DNA from: Marinobacter zhejiangensis | GTDB taxonomy: Bacteria > Pseudomonadota > Gammaproteobacteria > Pseudomonadales > Oleiphilaceae | NCBI RefSeq assembly: GCF_900114775.1 | Contig: NZ_FOUE01000002.1 | Coordinates: forward strand, 248,001 to 312,000 | Length of the DNA: 64,000 nucleotides | Reading direction: 5' to 3' | Shown here: piece by piece, positions 18,494 through 29,768 of the stretch | Layout of the letters: every line of letters starts with the position of its first letter | Numbering within the stretch: the first letter of the stretch is position 1 | The notes under the pieces: model-generated | The model's input: only the letters and a program-made list of their open reading frames with translations | Databases searched by the model: none | What the model was told of the DNA's origin: nothing | Position numbers and translations under genes: made by a program

Positions 18494-18662
18494 TAAGGGC
18501 TGGTCAATCCGCTTGGTTGCATGGGGCGCGTGGACACCTCCGGGCTCTACCGGAGGAGAAGCGCACTTTGAATGGGGCATTATCCAGCCTGTCGCAGCTA
18601 ATGCAAAATCTGAAATAGAGGTTGGTTGCAGTGGTTGCCTGGATGGAATGAAGGCGAGCCCG

Positions 18663-20426
18663 CTACGCTGGCAAGCGTATGATGAAAACAGCGCCGGGAC
18701 CCTCATTGTAGACTTGAAGGGTTCCTTTGAAGTCATTGGTGACAATGTCCCTGGCAATGTATAGCCCGGTGCCCGCGTCGGGTTGTGTTTTTTCACTGAA
18801 CCCTAATGAAAAAACGTCGTTCGGTCTGCTTGTCTTGATTCCGCCGGCGTTATCACTGATGACCAGCACATAGTCTCCCTCGTCGCAGAAATCCCGTATG
18901 GTGATTCGGGGGTGGGCAACGTCCCTCATTACAAGAACTTCCCGGGCATTACCTACGATGCTTAAGATGACTTGTGCCAGGCGACCACGCTTACCCTCAA
19001 GGTGCACGCTTTGAGCGTCGTTTTTGTAGTCAATGGCGATGTTCTGCAAGGCGAGGCTGTCTTTGGTCACCAGCAGAATATCCTTCACAACCTCCCGGGG
19101 CTGGAAGTCCTCAACGGTGTCGCGGTTGCTCATCAGGTGGCCAAAGGCCTCAACAGTGTCGGCCATAAACTCCAAGACTTGGTGTCCCCGTTCGCTGATG
19201 GTTTCGATCGCCCTGGCCTCGTTGTTGGCGCTTCCTTTCAGGGTGGCGGCGAGTTGCTCGATGCGCATCAGCTGGATCCCAAGCTCATTGAGAGGCTGCT
19301 TCCATTGGTGACTGACGTTTTTAAGTGATTCGCCGATGTTCGCGTACTGGTTTTTTATCACAATCAGACGCTTCAGCTGCTTGTTAAGCTTGTTGAACCG
19401 GTAAGCAATGCCGGATATCAGCAGCACCACTAATAACGCGATCAGGATAACTCTGATCAGCAGGGTGTAATCGGCGCTCTCTGGTTCTTCGTACAGGAAA
19501 CCGTCGAGCGAGAAATCCTGCCTCAACATGCCGGATTCGATGTAGGTGTCTGCGATATGGCGCCAACGGGAGTCCAGCATGTAGCCGATGTGGATGAGCT
19601 CTGGAAGCATGAGCTGGCGGATCTGTTTCGCTTCGTAGATAAGCACGTCCCGGCTCTTGGTGGTGGGGTACTCCGCCAAGATCAGGTCTACGATTTCCTC
19701 GGGATGCGCCATGGCGTATGTCCAGCCTTGCAAGCTGGCTTGCCGGAACCGTCGTACCCGTTCTGGGTGGTGATGAATTTCGTGTTCCGTGGTAAAGAGG
19801 TTGTCGCCGTAAAAATCGATGTTGGCTGAGGTCGGGTGGAAGACGTTGTAGGGCACTCCCTGCTGCAGCAGTTCGTAGGGCTGAGTGGTTAGGTAAGCGT
19901 CGATGGCATCAACCCGTCCCTCGATGAACGCCTCAAGGTTCTGGGAGTTATCCTGGATGTCTGCAAAGCCTTCCAGTGGAAGGTCGACATTGTGGAGGAA
20001 CGCCTGGATTTCATCGGCCTGCGGCTCCAGCATCAGGCGTCCGCCTCTCAGCCCCTGAATTCCATCAAATGTCACTCTTTTGTTGGTAATAAGCACAAAC
20101 GGGGAGTGCTGCATGATTACAGCGAGAACAACTAAGGGGTGGCCCTGTGCTCTGGAAAGCAATAGACCGCTGTTGCCGGTACCGAATTCCGCGTTGCCAT
20201 CCAGAACCGCCTGCACCGGGTCGGTTCCGGGCCCTGCTGGGATGATGGTTACATCCAGTCCTGCCTCTTGATAGTACCCCTGAGCTTTGGCGGCGTAGTA
20301 GCCCGCAAACTGGAACTGGTGGCCCCATTTCAGCTGTAGTCTCACACTGTCGGTGGCCTGAACCTGGCCGCCCGACAGAATGAACAACGGAAGCAGGGGA
20401 GCCCATAAGCGGTACAGCCAGGTCAC
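18663..20426 (-). CDS. Sensor kinase with NMT1/THI5-like binding-protein domain (587 aa)
   Basis: A membrane histidine kinase whose sensor is a whole ABC-type solute-binding protein. After a signal segment (residues 1-24), residues about 28-310 match the NMT1/THI5-like fold ([44 protein letters not shown]). One membrane helix follows (about 322-345), then a kinase core with the phospho-His in [13 protein letters not shown], an N-box-like [11 protein letters not shown], and VISDNAGGI. The start is GTG 20426, overlapping the regulator stop (GTGA), so the two are translationally coupled. The ligand may be a pyrimidine- or thiamine-precursor-like or sulfonate-like small molecule; this is inference from the fold. 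No matching ABC permease is present. Confidence 0.9.
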
Positions 20427-21130
20427 GTCTGCCGGCTCTCGAGGACCCAGCCGGCGCCGTGGCGATTTCTGATGATGTTGTAGCTGAGTTTCTTCCTGAG
20501 TTCTGCCAGTAGATTCTTCAGGGCCGATTCACTGATGTCTTCATTGGGCCAGACCGAGTCATAAATTTCCTGTTTGGTGACCAGTTGGTGGCGGTTTCGA
20601 ACCAACAGGTCCAAGAGGCGGCATTCTTTGCTGCCAAGACTGATTTCCCGATCATCCACCCGCAGTGTTTTATGCAGGGGGTGATAGCCGACCGCTGCGT
20701 GCAGCTGCACTGGCGTAATGGTGTGTTTCAGACGCTTGACGGCATTGGCCATCGCGGAGTTGAGCTTCCGGGGGTTCAGTGGCTTGATTACCAATCCATC
20801 CACCTGGAGATTGGCTGCACGCATCAGGTGGTCGTGGTCACCGTGGGCCGTCACGACAATGACCGGCACGATGCTGTCGTGCGTCTGGCGGATGTGCTCA
20901 ACGAGTTTCAGTCCGTCCATGCCTGGAAGGCAGATGTCCGTAATGATCATGTCCACCGATTCTTCGGCCAGCATGTCCAGGGCGCGCTCTGCTGTGTGAG
21001 CCAGGAGTACTTCTGAAAAACGGTTGGAAAGCAGCGAATACAGCGCAGCACTGCTGTCGTAATTGTCGTCAACCAGCAACACTGTCAGGTGCTTGAGTAT
21101 TAGGTCCGTATCCAAATCCATGAGGTCCAT
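20423..21130 (-). CDS. OmpR-type response regulator (235 aa)
   Basis: The receiver domain spans about residues 15-130, with acidic residues LLVDDN, phospho-acceptor Asp65 in MIITDICLPGMDG and Lys in LVIKPLNPRKL. A winged-helix DNA-binding domain follows (about 150-230: LGSKECRLLDLLVRNRHQLVTKQEIYDSVW). It is the first gene of the pair and overlaps the kinase start. The start is uncertain: ATG 21130 is chosen, TTG 21157 and ATG 21121 are alternatives, and none has a clear ribosome binding site. The large surface-protein operon begins divergently 270 bases away and could be a target, though this is not shown. Confidence 0.9.
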   Translation of the reverse strand: MDLMDLDTDLILKHLTVLLVDDNYDSSAALYSLLSNRFSEVLLAHTAERALDMLAEESVDMIITDICLPGMDGLKLVEHIRQTHDSIVPVIVVTAHGDHDHLMRAANLQVDGLVIKPLNPRKLNSAMANAVKRLKHTITPVQLHAAVGYHPLHKTLRVDDREISLGSKECRLLDLLVRNRHQLVTKQEIYDSVWPNEDISESALKNLLAELRKKLSYNIIRNRHGAGWVLESRQT

Positions 21131-21402
21131 TTCTAAGGTGTAAACAGGGTAATGCAAGCGTTATGAAATACCCACTTAAAGCATGCCTAGAAGAGGGGGT
21201 TTAGTCGAAAATCTGACTCTTTTCAGACTGTTCAGCCATTACTCTCGTACCCGCCACAAGTATGTCCGGGTAATACGCATATCGGTTTTGATGCTAGTCA
21301 AAGAACCGGTGAGTGACGGCGCTTGTTGTGCGACCAGGCTGCCGTTGGTGTACGTGTGTTTTCAGAAATACAGCGGCAGGAGCTTCGTTACAGGGGACGT
21401 TC

Positions 21403-24400
21403 ATGAGAGTAATGCGGAACACAGCGCTGTGCGGTTTGCTCGCCAGTGTGATACCGGTTGGGGGAGTTCAGGCGGCGACTACGGATCTTGTGGGGGGCAG
21501 CGCATGGACTGCCCTGCTGAAGGGCGAGCGCTTTGACTATCCGGAGGATACCCAGGCACAGGCTGCTGGCACTGAGGTGGTGGGTGGCGCAAACCACGCT
21601 TCGTTTTACTACAACTACGATGACCTGGGGACGCCTGCTGACATCAGTGATGATATTCTCTCGCTGCGTCTGCGGGTAGGTGATGAGACCAAGACCTCCT
21701 ATTCCGCCTATGCGTTCGTGGGAATCGATGCCAATGAAGATGGTGTTTTGGACGCCTTCATCAGCAGTGGTAGTGGCAAAACATCGATCTGGGATCCGGG
21801 CACCGACAGCAATATCTCTCCAAGTACGACTAGCATCGCCAATAAGCCTTTTGTCACCGTTCCCCAAGACACCACCAACTACAATTTCGCCGTAGTTTCG
21901 GCAACGAACGATCCCGACTGGGATGGCAACACTGACCTGGACCTGGATTCGAACCCGGATGTCTTTGTCAGTTTTTCAGTGAACATCAGCGATCTTGATG
22001 CGTTGCTGACCAACGCTGGCATCCCAATGACGGTCGAGACCGGTCTTCGTTTCATTTCGCTGACGGCGACCCAGACCAACTCGCTCAACTCGGACTTTAA
22101 CGGTATTGATGATGGTACCAATGATGACTGGGGCAAGCCTTACGAGGAACTGGGGCTTTTCACTCCAACGGTCAACCCCGGTGGCGTCGTCGACACGGTA
22201 GCGCCCATTACGCCAACGGTTGTCAGTCAGGTGACCAGTGATACCACACCGACCATTACCGGTACCTTTGACAGCACGGACTTTGACACCTTTACCGTTG
22301 AAGTTAACGGGACTACCTACTCTCTGAATGACGGCAATCTGACCAATATCGGTAATGACTGGAGCCTGACGATACCGAATGCGTTGCCGGAAGCGACCTA
22401 CGCGGTAACAGCAACAGCGACGGATGGCGCGGGCAACAGTTCGGTCGATACGACCACCGGCGAACTGGTGATCGACCTGAGCGGCCCCGCAGCCCCGACA
22501 GTGGTCAGTCAGACCACCTCAGATACCACGCCAACCATCAGCGGGTCATTTGACAGTGCGGATACCGATGTACTAACCGTCTTTGTCGATGGTGTTACCT
22601 ACACATTGGGCGATGGGAATCTGACAGCCTCCGGGGATACTTGGAACCTCACCATTCCCGCCGGGAATGAAGTTCTTGAGGGGACCTACCCGGTGACGGC
22701 AACGGCCACCGATGCCCAAGGCAATCCCACCACTGATGGCACGACGGATGAGCTGATTGTTGATCTGACCGCTCCTGCAGCCCCGACGGTCAACAGCCAG
22801 GTCACCAGCGACACCACCCCGACCATCACCGGTACCTATCCTAGCGCCGACGCCACCGCCCTAACGGTCGAGGTGAACGGTGTGACCTATACGCTCAACG
22901 GTAGTACCGGCCCCCTGACAGCCGTTGGCGATAACTGGAGTCTCACGATACCAACGGCAATGGTTGAGGGAACCTACCCGGTCACCGCTAAGGCTTCCAA
23001 CGCACTGGGCAACTCTTCAACGGATACCACAACCAACGAGTTGATCATTGACCTGACCGGCCCGGTGGCCCCGACGGTGGTCAGTCAGACTACATCGGAC
23101 ACCACGCCGACCATCACCGGTACCTATAGCAGCGCGGATTCTGTGGCGTTAACCGTTAACGTGAATGGTGTGGACTATACGCTCAACGATGGAAGCCTGA
23201 GTGCTACTGGTGATGCCTGGACGCTGGTTATTCCTGCTGTGAATGAACTTGCGGAAGCCACCTATGACGTTACGGCAACCGCCGAAGACAGTGTGGGTAA
23301 CGCCACCAGCGATGCGACCAACGGCGAGCTAGTGATCGACCTGACCGGCCCGACAGCCCCGACGGTTGATAATCTCATCACGGCAGACACCACACCGGAA
23401 CTCACCGGTACCTACAACAGCAGTGACTCAGCGTCCCTGTTCGTCACCGTTAATGGAGTTACCTATACCCTTGGCGATGGCGACCTGACGGCACTGGGTG
23501 ATGACTGGACCGTCGTCATCCCGGATCCAAACGCGGTGGTACCTGGTGTGTATGACGTTACCGCCATTGCTAAAGATGCCTACAACAATGAGACACAGGA
23601 CAGCTCAACGAATGAGCTGACGGTTGAAGCTGACCACGATGGCGATGGCATTCCCAACAGCGTTGATCTCGATGACGACAACGACGGTATCCCGGACAGC
23701 GTTGAAGGGAATGGCGCGGTCGATACCGATGGGGATGGCATTCCCGACAGCCTGGATCTCGACTCCGACAACGACGGCCTTCTCGACCTCGTGGAGTCTG
23801 GTCTTGGTGCAGCACTGATTGCGACGCTGGACGCTGACTCCGACGGCGTGATCGATGCGGGCAATCCGTTCGGCACCAACGGTCTGTCTGATGACGTGGA
23901 AACCGCCACTGACAGCGCTACGCTGAACTACACCGTGGTGGATACCGACGGTGACACGGTGTACGACTTCCGTGACCTGGACTCCGACAATGACGGCATT
24001 ACCGATGTGGTTGAGTCCGGTGGCAGTGATCCGGACAACGATGGCCAGCTCGGCGGCGGGGATGAGGGTGGAAGCGTTGACGAAAACGGCATCCCCTCCG
24101 GTGGCCCTGTGTCGCCCAAGAATGACGACGGTGATGGTGAGCCCAATTACCGTGACCCCGACAGCGATAACGACGGCATCCCCGATGTAACCGAAGCGGG
24201 TGGTGAAGACCAGGGCGATGGCACGGCGGGTCCGGGCGATCCGGGCAACGGAGGTTTGCCGGGTGGTACGCCTCTGATCCCGAAAGACAGCGATGGTGAC
24301 GGGATACCGGACTATCAGGACAACACCGACAGTGATGGCGACGGAACCCCAGATACCGCCGACCTGGATGACGACAATGATGGCATCCCGGACAGCGTTG

Positions 24401-26244
24401 AAGGCAATGGTGCAGTCGATACCGATGGGGATGGTATCCCCGACAGTCTGGATCTGGATTCCGACAACGATGGTCTACTGGACCTCGTAGAGTCGGGGCT
24501 CGATGCCATATTGATTGGTTTGCTGGACAGCAATTCAGATGGCGTAATCGATGTGGGCAACCCGTTTGGCGCCAACGGTCTGTCTGACGACGTGGAAACC
24601 TCTGCTGATAGCAACGTGCTGTTCTACACGGTCGCGGATACTGATGGTGACGCGGTTTATGATTTCCGTGATCTGGATTCCGACAACGATGGTATTACCG
24701 ATGTCGTCGAGTCTGGCGGCAGTGACCCCGATGCTGATGGCCGGCTTGGGGACGGCGACGAAGCCTCGAATACTTACGCCAACGGTGTGCCTCTAAATGG
24801 CCCGCTGACACCTCAGGATAAGGACGGGGATACCATCGCCAACTTCCGTGATCTTGACAGTGACGACGACGGCCTCCACGACGTGGTCGAGGCTGGCGGC
24901 GACGATGGTGATCAGGATGGACGTCTGGGAGATGGGGATGAAACGGCTAATGTGGATGCCAACGGCATGCCGGCCGGCGGACCGCTGACGCCACCTGACA
25001 CCGATGGCGACACGGTTAAAGACTATCTGGACCTGGATGCCGACAACGATGGTATCCCGGATGTCACCGAGTCCGGTGGAAACGATAGTGGTAACGGTAC
25101 CCTTGGCGCTGGTGATCCTGGCAACAACGGCGTCCCGTCCAGTGGCCCGCTGTCTCCAGTCGATACCGATGGCGACGGTGATGATGACTATCGGGACCTC
25201 GACTCGGATAACGATGGCGTCAAGGACATTGTCGAAGCTGGCGGATCAGACTCCGATAATGACGGCAAGGTGGATGGATTCAGCGATCCGAACGGCGATG
25301 GCTACGATGATGGCAATGCGTCAAACCCTCTGCCGGTACCGGATACTGATAACGATGGCCGTCCTGACTTCCAGGACAATGACGACGCCGACAACGATGG
25401 TATTCCAGACACCGTCGATGTTGATGACGACAACGATGGCATCCCAGACCTCCTCGAAGGGGATGGCGCTGTAGACACCGATGGCGATGGTATTGCTGAC
25501 AGCCTGGATCTGGATTCCGACAACGACGGTATCTTCGACCTGGCCGAATCAGGAGCCGCTTCGCCGCTGGCCCTGGACGCCGATAACGACGGTCGCATCA
25601 ATGGCCCGGTTGGCAGCAATGGTCTGGCTGACGCTGTTGAAACCTCTGCGGATAGCGGCAGTGTCAATTACAACGGTGGTTTGCCCGTTGATACCGACGG
25701 TGACGGTGTGGCCGATTTCCGGGATATCGACTCGGACAACGATGGCATTGCAGATGTCACGGAGAACGGCGGCACTGATAACGGAAATGGCCGCCTTACC
25801 GGCACCCCTAACGTCAACGGTGTGATTTCCGGAACGACGGGAAAAACCGTAGATACGGACAAGGACGGCCAGCCCAACTTCCGGGATCTGGACTCCGATA
25901 ACGATGGCGAAAAAGACATCGAAGAGGTGGGTGGAACTGACAAGGATGGTGACGGCAAGATTGATGACTTCGACGATCGGGATGGCGACGGCTATGACGA
26001 TTCGACCCGACTGACCGCTGGCGATCTCGACAATGACGGCGTGCTTGACTACGTGCAGGCGAAGCCTCATGCCAGTGAACCGGCTGGTGTCGTTGAAACC
26101 GGGGTCAAGGGCGTAGGCGGATGTACCGTTGGATCCGGGGCGCCATTCGATCCGACCTTGCCGGCCTTGTTGGTCGTCTCACTCATGGTCGCTGGACGCT
26201 CCCGCGTCCAGAGGCTTGTTGCCGTACTGAAGGAGAAGTACTAA
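21403..26244 (+). CDS. Giant Ig-like/thrombospondin-3 repeat surface protein with JDVT-CTERM tail (1613 aa)
   Basis: A secreted or surface protein. Signal peptide MRVMRNTALCGLLASVIP...VQA, cleaved near residue 25. Residues about 26-268 form a unique N-terminal domain. Residues 269-742 are five Ig-like repeats. Residues 743-1560 are a long run of Asp/Asn/Gly calcium-binding thrombospondin type-3-like motifs (DTDGDGIPDSLDLDSDNDG). The C-terminus has the tripartite JDVT-CTERM sorting signal: GVGGCTVGSGAPFDPTLP with invariant Cys1574, a short hydrophobic stretch, and a basic tail. I chose ATG 21403 because AGGGGA precedes it and the signal peptide starts there. Its stop overlaps the OmpA-like start (TAATG). 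The likely processor is the MrtJ-type protease at 27459-27923. Function may be adhesion or envelope structure (inference). Confidence 0.9.
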   Translation: MRVMRNTALCGLLASVIPVGGVQAATTDLVGGSAWTALLKGERFDYPEDTQAQAAGTEVVGGANHASFYYNYDDLGTPADISDDILSLRLRVGDETKTSYSAYAFVGIDANEDGVLDAFISSGSGKTSIWDPGTDSNISPSTTSIANKPFVTVPQDTTNYNFAVVSATNDPDWDGNTDLDLDSNPDVFVSFSVNISDLDALLTNAGIPMTVETGLRFISLTATQTNSLNSDFNGIDDGTNDDWGKPYEELGLFTPTVNPGGVVDTVAPITPTVVSQVTSDTTPTITGTFDSTDFDTFTVEVNGTTYSLNDGNLTNIGNDWSLTIPNALPEATYAVTATATDGAGNSSVDTTTGELVIDLSGPAAPTVVSQTTSDTTPTISGSFDSADTDVLTVFVDGVTYTLGDGNLTASGDTWNLTIPAGNEVLEGTYPVTATATDAQGNPTTDGTTDELIVDLTAPAAPTVNSQVTSDTTPTITGTYPSADATALTVEVNGVTYTLNGSTGPLTAVGDNWSLTIPTAMVEGTYPVTAKASNALGNSSTDTTTNELIIDLTGPVAPTVVSQTTSDTTPTITGTYSSADSVALTVNVNGVDYTLNDGSLSATGDAWTLVIPAVNELAEATYDVTATAEDSVGNATSDATNGELVIDLTGPTAPTVDNLITADTTPELTGTYNSSDSASLFVTVNGVTYTLGDGDLTALGDDWTVVIPDPNAVVPGVYDVTAIAKDAYNNETQDSSTNELTVEADHDGDGIPNSVDLDDDNDGIPDSVEGNGAVDTDGDGIPDSLDLDSDNDGLLDLVESGLGAALIATLDADSDGVIDAGNPFGTNGLSDDVETATDSATLNYTVVDTDGDTVYDFRDLDSDNDGITDVVESGGSDPDNDGQLGGGDEGGSVDENGIPSGGPVSPKNDDGDGEPNYRDPDSDNDGIPDVTEAGGEDQGDGTAGPGDPGNGGLPGGTPLIPKDSDGDGIPDYQDNTDSDGDGTPDTADLDDDNDGIPDSVEGNGAVDTDGDGIPDSLDLDSDNDGLLDLVESGLDAILIGLLDSNSDGVIDVGNPFGANGLSDDVETSADSNVLFYTVADTDGDAVYDFRDLDSDNDGITDVVESGGSDPDADGRLGDGDEASNTYANGVPLNGPLTPQDKDGDTIANFRDLDSDDDGLHDVVEAGGDDGDQDGRLGDGDETANVDANGMPAGGPLTPPDTDGDTVKDYLDLDADNDGIPDVTESGGNDSGNGTLGAGDPGNNGVPSSGPLSPVDTDGDGDDDYRDLDSDNDGVKDIVEAGGSDSDNDGKVDGFSDPNGDGYDDGNASNPLPVPDTDNDGRPDFQDNDDADNDGIPDTVDVDDDNDGIPDLLEGDGAVDTDGDGIADSLDLDSDNDGIFDLAESGAASPLALDADNDGRINGPVGSNGLADAVETSADSGSVNYNGGLPVDTDGDGVADFRDIDSDNDGIADVTENGGTDNGNGRLTGTPNVNGVISGTTGKTVDTDKDGQPNFRDLDSDNDGEKDIEEVGGTDKDGDGKIDDFDDRDGDGYDDSTRLTAGDLDNDGVLDYVQAKPHASEPAGVVETGVKGVGGCTVGSGAPFDPTLPALLVVSLMVAGRSRVQRLVAVLKEKY
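22207..23631 (+). repeat. Five tandem Ig-like repeats of 94-96 codons
   Basis: Units begin at about 22207, 22489, 22777, 23065 and 23353. The last three intervals are exactly 288 bases and the first is 282. Each unit opens with APTV-S/N-QxTSDTTPTITG and ends with ELxxDLTGP. This matches bacterial Ig-like domains found in large adhesins. Sequence similarity is high at the protein level and moderate at the DNA level, so the duplication is not very recent. Confidence 0.9.
23665..26050 (+). repeat. Three nested super-repeats of calcium-binding TSP3-like motifs
   Basis: A longer block starting D-D/V-DDDNDGIPDxxEG-GAVDTDGDG recurs at about 23665, 24361 and 25417, with internal DLDSDNDG units and the repeated phrase NGLSDDVET. 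Blocks one and two are closest and keep almost the same order of sub-motifs; block three is shorter and more diverged. Thrombospondin type-3 motifs bind Ca2+ and stiffen when loaded. The layout suggests internal block duplications. Confidence 0.85.
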
Positions 26245-27338
26245 TGACTCGCCTCAAGCGCTTTGATGTTGCCGTATTGGCTATTGCTGTGGGTTGTGGT
26301 GCCTCCTGGGCTGTCGCTGATGACTTCGATGGCCCCTATGCCGGAATTGGCATCAGCCCCGGCATGACCCACATGGAGCCTGATAGCAACGGCACCATTT
26401 ACAGTACCGACGACGAGTACGACTCCGGCGGGAAAATCTACCTGGGCTACGATATAACCCGCCGATTCAGTGCTGAGATCTATTACTCGGATCTGGGTGA
26501 AGTCACCATGAACCCCTCCGGCAGCATTGACTACCGCGATGTGGGGGCCTACGGGCTTTACTACTTGTATCGCCCCGAAGAGTCGCGGGAAGGACTGTCC
26601 CTTTACGCGGCTCTGGGGGGTGGAAAAATGCTCAACAAATCGTCGGGCGTGCCCATGCGCACGGATCATGACTTCCATTTGATGGCGGGCGTGGGCGCTG
26701 AGTACGGCCTGTTTGATGGCTGGGCTTTGCGGGCCAACCTGGATCTCTATGACCATGATGCTCAGATGATCAGCTTTGGTGTGATGAAGCGCTTTGGTGG
26801 GAAGCCGGCACCGGTTGTTCTCAGTGAGCCGGAACCCGAGGTGGTCTTTGTGCCGGAACCGGAGCCAGCCCCCGAGCCTGTACCCGTCCCGGTTGTTGAA
26901 AACCCGGATCTGGATGGCGATGGCATTCTCAACGCCAATGACCGTTGTCCGGATACCGAGCCGGGCGTAAAAGTGGACGAGCAAGGGTGTGACCTTCAGG
27001 AAACGATCGTGCTTGAAGGGGTTACCTTTGCCACCAACTCAGCAACGCTGGTGGGCGAGTCTACGGTGATTCTCGACGAGGTTGTCGCCACACTGAAGCG
27101 GTACCCGGAGCAACCGGTTGCGATTGCTGGCTACACCGATGACCGGGGCGCTGCCAGCTATAACCAGCAGCTTTCTGAGCGGAGGGCGACGGCTGTCATG
27201 AACTACCTTGTTGAGAAAGGCGTTCAGGCCGACCGTATTCGCGCCCAGGGCTACGGAGAAAGCGACCCGATTGCGGACAATGCCACGGCCGAAGGCCGGG
27301 CGATGAACCGCCGGGTAGAGCTGCAGCTGGACGACTGA
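26244..27338 (+). CDS. OmpA-family outer-membrane protein with TSP3 linker (364 aa)
   Basis: Signal peptide (residues about 1-25, MTRLKRFDVAVLAIAVGC...AVA), an N-terminal eight-strand-like barrel (DGPYAGIGISPG; ISFGVMKRFG), a proline/glutamate-rich hinge, one calcium-binding repeat (NPDLDGDGILNANDRCPDTEPG), and a C-terminal OmpA peptidoglycan-binding domain with GYTDDRGAASYNQQLSERRA. It should span the outer membrane and grip the cell wall. Its ATG overlaps the stop of the giant surface protein (TAATG) and has AGGAGA upstream, showing translational coupling. It may anchor or help display the giant protein (inference). It ends at a strong terminator. Confidence 0.93.
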   Translation: MTRLKRFDVAVLAIAVGCGASWAVADDFDGPYAGIGISPGMTHMEPDSNGTIYSTDDEYDSGGKIYLGYDITRRFSAEIYYSDLGEVTMNPSGSIDYRDVGAYGLYYLYRPEESREGLSLYAALGGGKMLNKSSGVPMRTDHDFHLMAGVGAEYGLFDGWALRANLDLYDHDAQMISFGVMKRFGGKPAPVVLSEPEPEVVFVPEPEPAPEPVPVPVVENPDLDGDGILNANDRCPDTEPGVKVDEQGCDLQETIVLEGVTFATNSATLVGESTVILDEVVATLKRYPEQPVAIAGYTDDRGAASYNQQLSERRATAVMNYLVEKGVQADRIRAQGYGESDPIADNATAEGRAMNRRVELQLDD

Positions 27339-27363
27339 TGGACGTTCAGTTCCGTTGATGGTG

Positions 27364-27402
27364 GAGCTGTGCCAACCGTTATGGATGGCACAGCTCTTTT
27401 TT
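27364..27402 (+). terminator. Intrinsic terminator after OmpA-like gene
   Basis: A perfect 11-bp stem GAGCTGTGCCA (27364-27374) pairs with TGGCACAGCTC (27386-27396), then six T residues. It separates the surface-protein operon from the protease gene, so the protease must rely on read-through or its own promoter. Confidence 0.95.
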
Positions 27403-27458
27403 GTCGGTGAGCCCTTCACCCTGCACAGGCGCAGACCGTTCTGATTGTCGCGACAACC

Positions 27459-27923
27459 TTGCTAACCGCCGGATCACGGCCATTCAGCCGTTCGCCCATT
27501 TTCTGGCTGGCCATGCTGGCCGGGCCGGGTGTGTGTGCCCTGTTGTTTACCTTGCTAATGGCGGCCCCCGTTAGGTTTGAAGTTGACGTCGCGCAGTGGC
27601 GGCTGTGGTTGTGGCTGGTTGTTATCTATCCGGTGGTCGAGGAATACCTGTTCCGGGGTCGGTTGCAAACGTGGTTGATGGATACTGCCTGGGGCCAGAA
27701 AGCGGTGGCTGGACTGAGTCTTGCCAACGTGGTGACCAGCCTGCTGTTCAGTGGGCTGCATTTCTTCAGCCATCCGCCGTTGTGGGCGCTGATGGTTCTA
27801 TTCCCTTCGCTGCTGTTCGGCTGGTTTCGTGATCGCCACCAGAGCGTTCGTCCGGCGTTCGTTCTTCACGCCTGGTACAACTTTGTGTACTTCAGTATCT
27901 TCGGGCTGCCAGTTAGCCAGTAA
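27459..27923 (+). CDS. mrtJ: JDVT-CTERM system intramembrane protease, MrtJ-like (154 aa)
   Basis: A small polytopic membrane protease of the CAAX/ABI glutamic type. The three signature motifs are present: EEYLFR (Glu61, Glu62, Arg66), SGLHFFSH (His101) and HAWYNFVY (His137, Asn141). Established knowledge: CAAX-type proteases of this compact size encoded beside a single JDVT-CTERM protein (named MrtJ) are proposed to cut its C-terminal signal at the invariant Cys. The JDVT-CTERM protein is two genes upstream. The start is uncertain: TTG 27459 gives a full first helix, but no ribosome binding site is obvious; CTG 27441 and ATG 27513 are alternatives. A strong terminator lies 57 bases upstream. 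Confidence 0.88.
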   Translation: MLTAGSRPFSRSPIFWLAMLAGPGVCALLFTLLMAAPVRFEVDVAQWRLWLWLVVIYPVVEEYLFRGRLQTWLMDTAWGQKAVAGLSLANVVTSLLFSGLHFFSHPPLWALMVLFPSLLFGWFRDRHQSVRPAFVLHAWYNFVYFSIFGLPVSQ

Positions 27924-28056
27924 GCCGTTATCCAGTATGCCGCTGCCCAGAGAGCGGTTATGCGGTTGGCTCTGATATCCCCGCGCGGCTGTGGAGCTTC
28001 CGGTGTTAAGAAACTACCATGGAGCTTGGGAGCATCCGAACCGGATAGGGGACACG

Positions 28057-28557
28057 ATGACAGCGGGTGATCAGGAATTGGAGCAGGCCGGGTTGCGCCT
28101 CGGTGAACTGCTGGAGAAGAAACAGCTCACCATAGCGACCGCCGAAAGCTGCACGGGTGGCTGGGTGGCCAAGGTGCTGACGGATCGTGCGGGATCCTCC
28201 GCCTACCTGATGGCGGGCCTGGTGACCTACAGCAATGCGGCAAAACAACATCTCCTTGGCGTTGAAAGAGACGCTCTTGATCAGCATGGAGCCGTGAGTG
28301 AACCGGTCGTGAGGCAGATGGTGGCCGGGGCTATCAAAGCCGCTGGGGTAGACCTTGCGGTTGCGATCAGCGGGGTTGCCGGGCCCGGAGGCGGTAGTGC
28401 GGAGAAGCCGGTTGGCACGGTCTGGTTTGCCTGGGGTAGTGGACCGGATCACACCGAAACCGCTGTGAAATATTTTGACGGCGATCGTGATGACATTCGC
28501 AGGCAGTCAGTTTTGTTTGTATTGCAGGCAGTTACCGATTTCGTCAAAACGATGTGA
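28057..28557 (+). CDS. pncC: NMN amidohydrolase, CinA C-terminal type (166 aa)
   Basis: The enzyme converts nicotinamide mononucleotide to nicotinic acid mononucleotide and recycles pyridine nucleotide breakdown products. Motifs: TIATAESCTGGWVAKVLTDRAGSS near residue 25 and VAISGVAGPGGGS near residue 105, with the PVGTVWFA segment. This is the short form without the N-terminal molybdopterin-like domain. ATG 28057 follows AGGGGAC. It directly precedes recA, the order found in many gammaproteobacteria and streptococci (as cinA-recA). The recA promoter with its SOS box lies between them, so recA has its own start. Confidence 0.95.
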   Translation: MTAGDQELEQAGLRLGELLEKKQLTIATAESCTGGWVAKVLTDRAGSSAYLMAGLVTYSNAAKQHLLGVERDALDQHGAVSEPVVRQMVAGAIKAAGVDLAVAISGVAGPGGGSAEKPVGTVWFAWGSGPDHTETAVKYFDGDRDDIRRQSVLFVLQAVTDFVKTM

Positions 28558-28589
28558 CATTTTTCTTGGCCGGGTTCGCAGTTAGGGGG

Positions 28590-28618
28590 TTGGTCTCCCC
28601 ATCGGCTTATGCTTTAAT
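28590..28618 (+). promoter_or_regulatory. Predicted recA promoter
   Basis: TTGGTC (28590-28595) and TTTAAT (28613-28618) are separated by 17 bases. The SOS operator begins two bases after the -10, well placed to block RNA polymerase. Confidence 0.75.
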
Positions 28619-28619
28619 A

Positions 28620-28635
28620 CTGTTCAAATATACAG
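28620..28635. promoter_or_regulatory. LexA (SOS) box upstream of recA
   Basis: The sequence CTGTTCAAATATACAG is a perfect CTGT-N8-ACAG LexA operator. It lies 86 bases upstream of the recA start codon and adjoins the -10. This shows that recA is DNA-damage induced in the usual gammaproteobacterial manner. Confidence 0.95.
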
Positions 28636-28721
28636 TTTGATACTGGATGGCGTTGAGAAGGTTCGCCTCAACCGGCCGGTCCATGTTTCAGGTTTGAAGA
28701 CCTAAAGAGGGCATCGCAGCA

Positions 28722-29768
28722 ATGGAAGACAACCGTAAGAAAGCACTCAGCGCAGCACTGGGCCAGATTGAACGTCAGTTCGGCAAGGGCGCCGTCATGA
28801 AAATGGGCGATCAGCCCCGGGAAGCTATTCCTGCGGTCTCCACCGGTTCTCTGGGACTGGACGTTGCGCTGGGTATTGGTGGTCTGCCATACGGCCGTAT
28901 CGTTGAAATCTACGGTCCGGAAAGCTCCGGTAAAACCACGCTCACCCTGCAGGTGATTGCTGAAGCCCAGAAGCAGGGCAAGACCTGTGCTTTCGTTGAC
29001 GCGGAGCACGCGCTGGATCCGATCTATGCCGAGAAGCTGGGCGTCAATGTGGACGAGCTGCTGGTGTCCCAGCCGGACACCGGTGAGCAGGCTCTGGAAA
29101 TTGCCGACATGCTGGTGCGCTCCAACGCGGTTGACGTCATCATTGTTGACTCGGTGGCGGCACTGACGCCGAAGGCGGAGATCGAGGGTGAGATGGGTGA
29201 CTCCCACGTCGGCCTCCAGGCTCGTCTGATGTCCCAGGCCCTGCGTAAGCTGACCGGTAGCGTCAAGCAGGCCAACTGCCTGATGGTCTTCATCAACCAG
29301 ATCCGTATGAAAATCGGCGTTATGTTCGGTTCACCCGAAACCACCACCGGTGGTAACGCCCTTAAATTCTATGCCTCTGTGCGCCTGGACATTCGCCGCA
29401 TCGGCTCCGTTAAGGATGGCGACGAAGTTGTGGGTAACGAAACCCGGGTCAAGGTCGTCAAGAACAAGGTATCCCCGCCATTCCGTCAGGCCGAGTTCCA
29501 GATCATGTACGGCAAGGGCATTTACCACATGGCCGAAGTGCTGGACATGGGCGTGAAGGAAGGCTTTGTGGACAAGTCCGGTGCCTGGTATGCCTACAAC
29601 GGCGACAAGATCGGCCAGGGCAAGGCCAACGCCTGCAAGTTCCTGGAAGAAAACCTGGACATGGCCAACGAGATCGAAGCCAAGGTTCGCGACAAGCTGA
29701 TGCCCAAGCCGGAAAGCAAGAAAGAGGCGGAAGCCGCACAGCCCAGCGAAACCGGTGAACTGATCTAA
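28722..29768 (+). CDS. recA: Recombinase A (348 aa)
   Basis: RecA forms filaments on single-stranded DNA, drives strand exchange and stimulates LexA self-cleavage. Walker A is [10 protein letters not shown] (about residues 66-75), Walker B is [12 protein letters not shown], and the L2/DNA-binding region is [16 protein letters not shown]. Length is normal. The acidic C-terminal tail ([16 protein letters not shown]) is present. No recX follows: the next gene is a flavodoxin-like protein, with a strong hairpin in between. Confidence 0.99.

Follow-up and report, generated by a model that had tools for sequence, protein, structure and literature searches.

The locus described here raises the question of what ties an OmpA-like gene to the protein-sorting pair between whose genes it lies: does it belong to the sorting system, to the sorted protein, or to neither? 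The locus is found in a stretch of 64,000 nucleotides of Marinobacter zhejiangensis, hereafter the window (assembly GCF_900114775.1, contig NZ_FOUE01000002.1, positions 248,001 to 312,000). There, the gene of a giant protein ending in a JDVT-CTERM sorting signal overlaps the OmpA-like gene, which is followed by the gene of an MrtJ-type glutamic intramembrane protease, and a histidine kinase and a response regulator are encoded divergently. The JDVT-CTERM/MrtJ pair has already been published and is described as a neighbourhood of two genes only, in beta- and gammaproteobacteria (Guo, Haft, Wall 2025, PMC11980579). Judged by sequence comparison, the OmpA partner of the window is a companion of the giant and not of the MrtJ system. 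Taken as a whole, it is moderately probable that the five-gene block encodes an adhesin-like surface stalk together with its placement by MrtJ, the OmpA partner and the two-component pair.

The JDVT-CTERM model NF033191 matched the C-terminus of the 1613-residue protein with 33.6 bits for a curated cut-off of 27, and a basic tail follows the match up to position 26241. In an alignment of 50 JDVT proteins, all of which matched the model at E <= 0.001, the residues Cys1574, Asp1583 and Leu1586 were invariant. This alignment comprised the window protein and 49 others, one of 50 others having been dropped (<200 aa), and many of the 49 are N-terminally incomplete since only about 1.5 kb upstream was covered. 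The giant contains two cysteines only: the signal-peptide-like N-terminus carries Cys10, the tail Cys1574. It is distinguished by its cargo: among 50 scanned JDVT proteins, Ca_tandemer was detected in the giant alone, and its 38 DxDxDG-type motifs (counted by regular expression) compare with at most four in the other JDVT proteins, many of them being partial sequences. In the same scan, 23 proteins matched choice-of-anchor F and 10 choice-of-anchor O. One JDVT protein matched TIGR03788, the marine proteobacterial sortase target protein, with an E-value of 4.1e-14; a sortase-type cargo may therefore carry the JDVT tag, or the match could reflect a mere shared VWA domain.

The protease was recognized by the equivalog model NF033192 (MrtJ; 111.7 bits, cut-off 75) and by PF02517 (57.5 bits, cut-off 22.4). 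Its catalytic residues E61, E62, R66, H101, H137 and N141 (EExxxR, His and HxxxN) were invariant in 41 aligned MrtJ proteins, in which the numbering is one lower than in the window MrtJ; six loci lacking a called gene (L047, L085, L097, L100, L104, L110) and L087 (70 aa) were left out of this alignment. The initial annotation, made from the letters alone, was thus right about both the JDVT-CTERM tail with its invariant Cys1574 and the 154-residue glutamic protease. A second CPBP-family match in the genome remained below the MrtJ cut-off (37.2 bits).

The window genome contained one JDVT and one MrtJ match above cut-off. The single target with a dedicated protease proposed at first therefore holds here and cannot be generalized, as JDVT-positive genomes of the genus encode two or three JDVT proteins in 13 of 25 cases, some of the proteins distant from mrtJ. 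Among 390 genomes of the order, 22 exceeded the cut-off for MrtJ, 17 for JDVT and 16 for both (one of the 16, G141, passing for JDVT only when neighbours in frame were included); the corresponding figures for 124 genomes of the genus were 24, 25 and 22. The co-occurrence exceeds chance, with Fisher p values of ~1e-22 (order) and ~4e-19 (genus), relatedness being ignored in both. JDVT was found without MrtJ in 1/17 and 3/25 genomes, respectively. None of 14 control genomes passed either cut-off, and matches below the cut-offs were present in 11 of them for MrtJ and in 9, at E up to 1, for JDVT. With our own tail profile, a JDVT gene was detected in the stretch around MrtJ at 23 or more of 42 MrtJ loci, which is a lower bound because the profile missed G141 and G399, both listed by the curated model. 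Loci with MrtJ above cut-off in genomes without JDVT above cut-off were L089-L092 (G100, G265, G205, G159), L086 (G077) and L079 (G293). It is possible that such genomes carry an unrecognised variant of the tag.

The ATG of the OmpA gene at 26244 lies inside the stop codon of the giant gene (TAATG), an overlap of one base which agrees with the first description of the locus, and AAGGAG is found just upstream. The product carries a PF13505 barrel and a PF00691 domain at residues 261-356, and matched 78 PDB sequences. The calcium-type repeat ascribed to it stands as a TSP3-type linker, but the TSP_3 model matches it only weakly, with 13.9 bits for a cut-off of 25. An OmpA-domain gene was absent from all 47 other MrtJ stretches (3.7-20 kb), both by gene calls and by tblastn, the latter finding OmpA in 33 of the 33 OmpA loci used as positive control. 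It was likewise absent from 90 other JDVT-bearing loci, which are mostly of ~3 kb and include some repeats of one place, two further copies of the window having been left out. The idea that MrtJ cassettes normally include OmpA was consequently rejected, and the initial view of it as a possible anchor belonging to the MrtJ system is not supported in that form.

The relatives of the OmpA partner point instead to repeat proteins. Within the order, the top three matches are the ends of repeat-rich proteins, the two parts sharing a single reading frame. Among 164 genomes of the order, the highest-scoring match apart from the gene itself (213 bits) is the end of a 3303-aa frame in G165, a genome of another family. 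This frame lies between fdx-mutS and cinA-recA, which is the locus occupied in the window, without kinase, regulator or MrtJ alongside. The two OmpA parts share 39% identity (132 of 338, E 6e-63), and the Ig-like parts matched at E 4e-23 with composition adjustment. Further repeat-OmpA frames of 884-1572 aa were found in G125, G052, G039 and G082 (two further genera), bringing the fused frames to five genomes and three genera, with lengths of 884-3303 aa. Of the five fused frames, three (G165, G082, G125) showed two hydrophobic segments above the threshold ahead of the barrel, the first being tail-like with basic residues and the second signal-peptide-like. In G052 the second segment is below threshold and visible by eye; G039 has a single segment and does not fit this reading. 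No curated sorting model matched the tails of the fused relatives above cut-off, a single MYXO-CTERM match reaching 15.8 bits for a cut-off of 20. In G137, a giant protein ending in a hydrophobic and basic tail adjoins the OmpA gene and overlaps a further small barrel gene.

In a tree of 32 OmpA rows, the window, the five fused rows and G137 formed a seven-row clade (support 95/90), whose sister group consists of ten OmpA rows adjoining a DxDxDG-repeat protein, plus G177. A repeat partner, for which a frame fused to OmpA or adjoining it had to contain five or more DxDxDG motifs, was present in 17 of the 18 rows of this joint clade (91/90) and in none of the other 14. L154 and L158, where the OmpA gene was missed by the gene caller, were left out of the tree; OmpA is present there by tblastn, with no repeat partner within 3 kb. 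The L162 row is the best phmmer-scored gene and not the best tblastn-scored stretch. Pairs of a TSP3-linker OmpA and a DxDxDG-repeat protein were observed ten times (L153, L163-L169, L171, L268), nine in the same genus and one in another family. The OmpA gene comes first and, except in L164, the two genes overlap or are separated by at most 18 bases. The partner has an N-terminal lipobox in 9/10 pairs, L164 lacking one in the frame called. One such pair, L153 (G000:C5, 9424-11933), belongs to the genome of the window itself. Read together, these data suggest a single OmpA lineage tied to repeat proteins, which are fused to it, N-terminally lipidated or, in the window, JDVT-tagged. Because of the recurrent fusion with repeat proteins, the fused relative at the same locus and the clade of the tree, the giant and the OmpA partner look like one unit, with JDVT-CTERM and MrtJ as its variable anchor.

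The most serious rival is that the JDVT/MrtJ pair works as described while the OmpA protein merely lies next to it, serving separately as a tether between outer membrane and wall, without binding to the giant. Such a neighbour is compatible with the lack of OmpA genes at the MrtJ and JDVT loci reported above, and two other OmpA genes with TSP3-type linkers are present in the genome. The overlap of the two genes, the repeated fusion, the G165 frame and the supported clade argue in the opposite direction, and we regard this explanation as rather improbable.

Several observations nevertheless weigh against the association of giant, OmpA partner and MrtJ proposed here. The trio was found in one genome only, so that co-selection of MrtJ and OmpA is not demonstrable. 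The likeness of the fused giants to the window giant rests on widespread repeat domains, and the N-terminal domain of the window giant has no match in G165. The OmpA tree is support and not proof, as it was built from loci selected for their similarity to the window OmpA and several of its branches are long. The model of TraB, a Myxococcus protein to which we return below, matched the OmpA partner with 120.5 bits for a cut-off of 700, and only over its TSP3/OmpA end (residues 220-361). MrtJ exceeded the cut-off in genomes without JDVT in 6 of 22 cases (order) and 2 of 24 (genus), and of the four Thiogranum/Thiohalobacter MrtJ stretches, which are neighbours of the window MrtJ in its tree, none contains a JDVT tail. 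A structure model of MrtJ built from 4 sequences (pLDDT 74), with no PDB match at E <= 0.001, was of too low quality to support the Rce1-like fold; a PDB sequence search with the MrtJ alignment gave none at E <= 0.01. Finally, region 27335-27415 between ompA and mrtJ folds with -33.8 kcal/mol (z -3.83) into a strong hairpin with a U run, which the pattern scan did not list; it suggests that mrtJ does not simply share the giant-ompA transcript.

For the favoured association of giant, OmpA partner and MrtJ, we infer the following pathway. After export by Sec, the hydrophobic stretch at the C-terminus would retain the giant in the inner membrane. Cys1574 would be lipidated and MrtJ would cut directly after it, so that the giant ends in a lipid anchor. 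A type II secretion system could then move the giant to the cell surface; GspD is encoded in the genome (532.9 bits, cut-off 351). The OmpA partner, predicted to reside in the outer membrane and to bind peptidoglycan via its OmpA domain, would grip the base of a putatively calcium-stiffened stalk, as proposed for TraB towards TraA, and the adjacent kinase/regulator pair probably controls the giant.

In a second rival explanation, the giant is not displayed on the surface: it remains in the periplasm or on the inner side of the outer membrane and, tied to peptidoglycan via OmpA, acts as a calcium-dependent spacer. A passenger placed N-terminally to an OmpA-type barrel would be periplasmic by default, as follows from OmpA topology, and this is the arrangement of the fused relatives; moreover, surface exposure of the giant is a prediction. 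The adhesin-type repeats of the giant speak against a spacer, and TraA and MXAN_4924, which carry a related tag, both reach the cell surface according to PMC11980579. We therefore hold a periplasmic giant to be unlikely.

In the MrtJ tree, the window protein falls outside the main MrtJ clade of the genus (17 rows, 100/99), and its nearest rows come from other families with weak support (85/71), a position which fits lateral arrival. That the unit is decaying or mis-sorted, with MrtJ a late arrival and the JDVT tail inefficiently processed, would agree with this position, with the putative TTG start of MrtJ and with a hydrophobic stretch which looks short by eye, but it is most improbable given that all reading frames are open, all catalytic residues are kept and the tail scores above cut-off.

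The genes occupy a single insertion of at most 9.6 kb comprising five genes: kinase, regulator, giant, OmpA and MrtJ (Table 1). The cinA locus was sought in 31 genomes, G004 yielding none, and compared with that of 29 others of the genus: mutS and cinA were adjacent in 22, separated by other content in 5 and cut by a contig end in 2. Differing genes were observed at the site in L214, L215 and L217 (with mutS) and in L216 and L218 (stretch without mutS), so the mutS/cinA site may be a recurrent insertion point in the genus. Alternatively, and no less compatible with the data, the giant-OmpA unit may be old at this site, as the G165 frame would suggest, with later loss from most genomes of the genus. 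The G+C content of the giant, OmpA and MrtJ genes (0.576-0.587) is close to that of the flanks (0.572-0.588), those of the kinase (0.548) and the regulator (0.544) being slightly lower.

Table 1. Coordinates, in the window, of the inserted block and of the features assigned to it.
Feature	Position	Strand	Basis
Inserted block between mutS and cinA-recA, outer limits	18494..28056	.	mutS adjoins cinA in 22/29 other genus genomes
Sensor histidine kinase, NMT1/THI5-like sensing domain	18663..20426	-	PF09084 146.8 bits, PF02518
OmpR-type response regulator, divergent from giant gene, putative TTG start	20423..21157	-	PF00072, PF00486
Divergent intergenic region, presumed control region	21158..21402	.	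position only
Giant JDVT-CTERM protein, 1613 aa	21403..26244	+	ATG 21403, stop at 26244
Predicted signal peptide, residues 1-24	21403..21474	+	read from sequence
N-terminal domain, 241 residues (25-265)	21475..22197	+	no family assigned
Five Ca_tandemer / Big_13 Ig-like repeats, residues ~266-735	22198..23607	+	NF033510, PF19077; 288-nt spacing
TSP3-like DxDxDG stalk, ~25% Asp	23608..26109	+	
JDVT-CTERM match, residues 1570-1601: GGCT motif, hydrophobic stretch	26110..26205	+	NF033191
Invariant Cys1574 codon	26122..26124	+	
OmpA partner, 364 aa: signal peptide, barrel, Pro-rich and TSP3-type linker, OmpA peptidoglycan-binding domain	26244..27338	+	
Terminator-like hairpin and U run in the ompA-mrtJ spacer, limits approximate	27363..27402	+	fold
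MrtJ glutamic intramembrane protease, 154 aa, putative TTG start	27459..27923	+	NF033192

The divergent kinase/regulator pair of the block was absent from the initial annotation. In 174 genomes of the order, the kinase had 27 other matches, all confined to residues 4-366 around the NMT1 sensing part and outside the kinase domain (479-586). None of the 47 other MrtJ stretches contained a kinase match, and the regulator matches among them, two by phmmer and one by tblastn, were weak and generic; the pair was accordingly rejected as a part of MrtJ cassettes elsewhere. A consensus scan of 20350-28800 revealed no sigma-70-like promoter. A role in anti-phage defence was discarded as well, the only matches being to generic MotB/OmpA-domain and receiver-domain models.

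Of 389 other genomes of the order, two contain relatives of the N-terminal domain of the giant, both incomplete: in G236 the frame continues past the end of the contig, and in G096 it stands on a 3.2 kb contig. The former (L205, G236:C2:1-20000) is a frame of ~2400 residues. No match to the domain was found in the plasmid collection, and folded alone it gave an unusable model (pLDDT 34.8). PDB sequence searches with the Ig-like repeats and the TSP3 stalk gave no match at E <= 0.01.

The window joins, in a gammaproteobacterium, two things described separately: the JDVT/MrtJ sorting pair, little studied so far, and an adhesin of the TraA/TraB type with a wall-anchored barrel. One OmpA lineage with three partner anchors forms a series in nature through which the contribution of each anchor can be examined. 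In a one-target system the processing by MrtJ, the acyltransferase and the role of OmpA can be approached without dozens of other substrates. A more far-reaching proposal, which we advance tentatively and consider less probable than the general reading of the block, is that a receptor and barrel module of TraA/TraB format exists outside Myxococcota. Its giant-OmpA unit, fused, lipoprotein-paired or tag-paired in related families, would have been re-anchored by JDVT-CTERM and MrtJ and, together with a dedicated two-component switch, would be mobile as an island, and a 1:1 calcium-dependent giant-OmpA junction would tie the surface stalk to the wall for cell-cell contact.

Four known arrangements were compared with the locus, besides the published JDVT/MrtJ pair. 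With that pair the window shares a target with invariant Cys, hydrophobic stretch and basic tail and a dedicated CPBP protease nearby; it differs by the OmpA gene between target and protease and by its cargo of Ca_tandemer and DxDxDG repeats. The proteobacterial dedicated sortase system combines a single target and a single sorting enzyme with an OmpA-like protein and a two-component pair, and the block has matching parts (target, protease, OmpA, kinase/regulator). The system was ruled out by model scores: the PdsO model TIGR03789 gave 90.9 bits on the OmpA partner for a cut-off of 152.2, and no pds model was found among the 14 matches of the kinase or the best 25 of the 99 matches of the regulator. 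The lipoprotein and OmpA pairs resemble the window by a related OmpA with TSP3 linker beside a DxDxDG-repeat protein and differ by their N-terminal lipobox (in nine of ten) and by the leading position of the OmpA gene.

The closest parallel is found in Myxococcus. There, the signal peptide of TraA is followed by a recognition domain, a stalk of repeats and finally a MYXO-CTERM tag, and the cleavage of TraA by MrtX depends on the tag cysteines (PMC11980579). The traB gene overlaps traA by four bases (PMC3325183); in its product, a barrel is joined to TSP3 repeats and an OmpA domain, TraA and TraB occurring 1:1 (preprint PMC12045341). The window likewise encodes an adhesin with a Cys tag, an overlapping downstream gene for a barrel, TSP3-type linker and OmpA domain, and a CPBP sorting protease. 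By sequence, the pair is not TraAB, because the TraB match is partial and far below cut-off and no PA14 or Cys-rich repeats were found: neither was matched in the giant by Pfam or NCBIfam models, and its mature part has a single Cys. In addition, the tag is JDVT and not MYXO, MYXO-CTERM being absent from the matches of the giant at E <= 1, the TraB model matched the 364-aa OmpA partner at its C-terminal end only, and Myxococcus mrtX (MXAN_2755) lies apart from traB (MXAN_6898), unlike the window protease. MXAN_5598 unites adhesin, internal tag, barrel and OmpA in a single protein (PMC11980579). The five fused relatives resemble this format, although their tails lack a match to a curated sorting model above cut-off, and the window keeps giant and OmpA as overlapping genes. 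The pairing of a tagged adhesin with a barrel-TSP3-OmpA protein is therefore not new as such, since TraA/TraB and MXAN_5598 share this layout. The initial claim that the OmpA partner is undescribed is valid for JDVT/MrtJ only, for which none was found in the literature searched, mostly without subscription papers, and as far as our searches reach the JDVT/MrtJ form of the pairing is new. On the strength of these comparisons, this is, as predicted from its genes, a JDVT/MrtJ version of the TraA/TraB layout outside Myxococcota.

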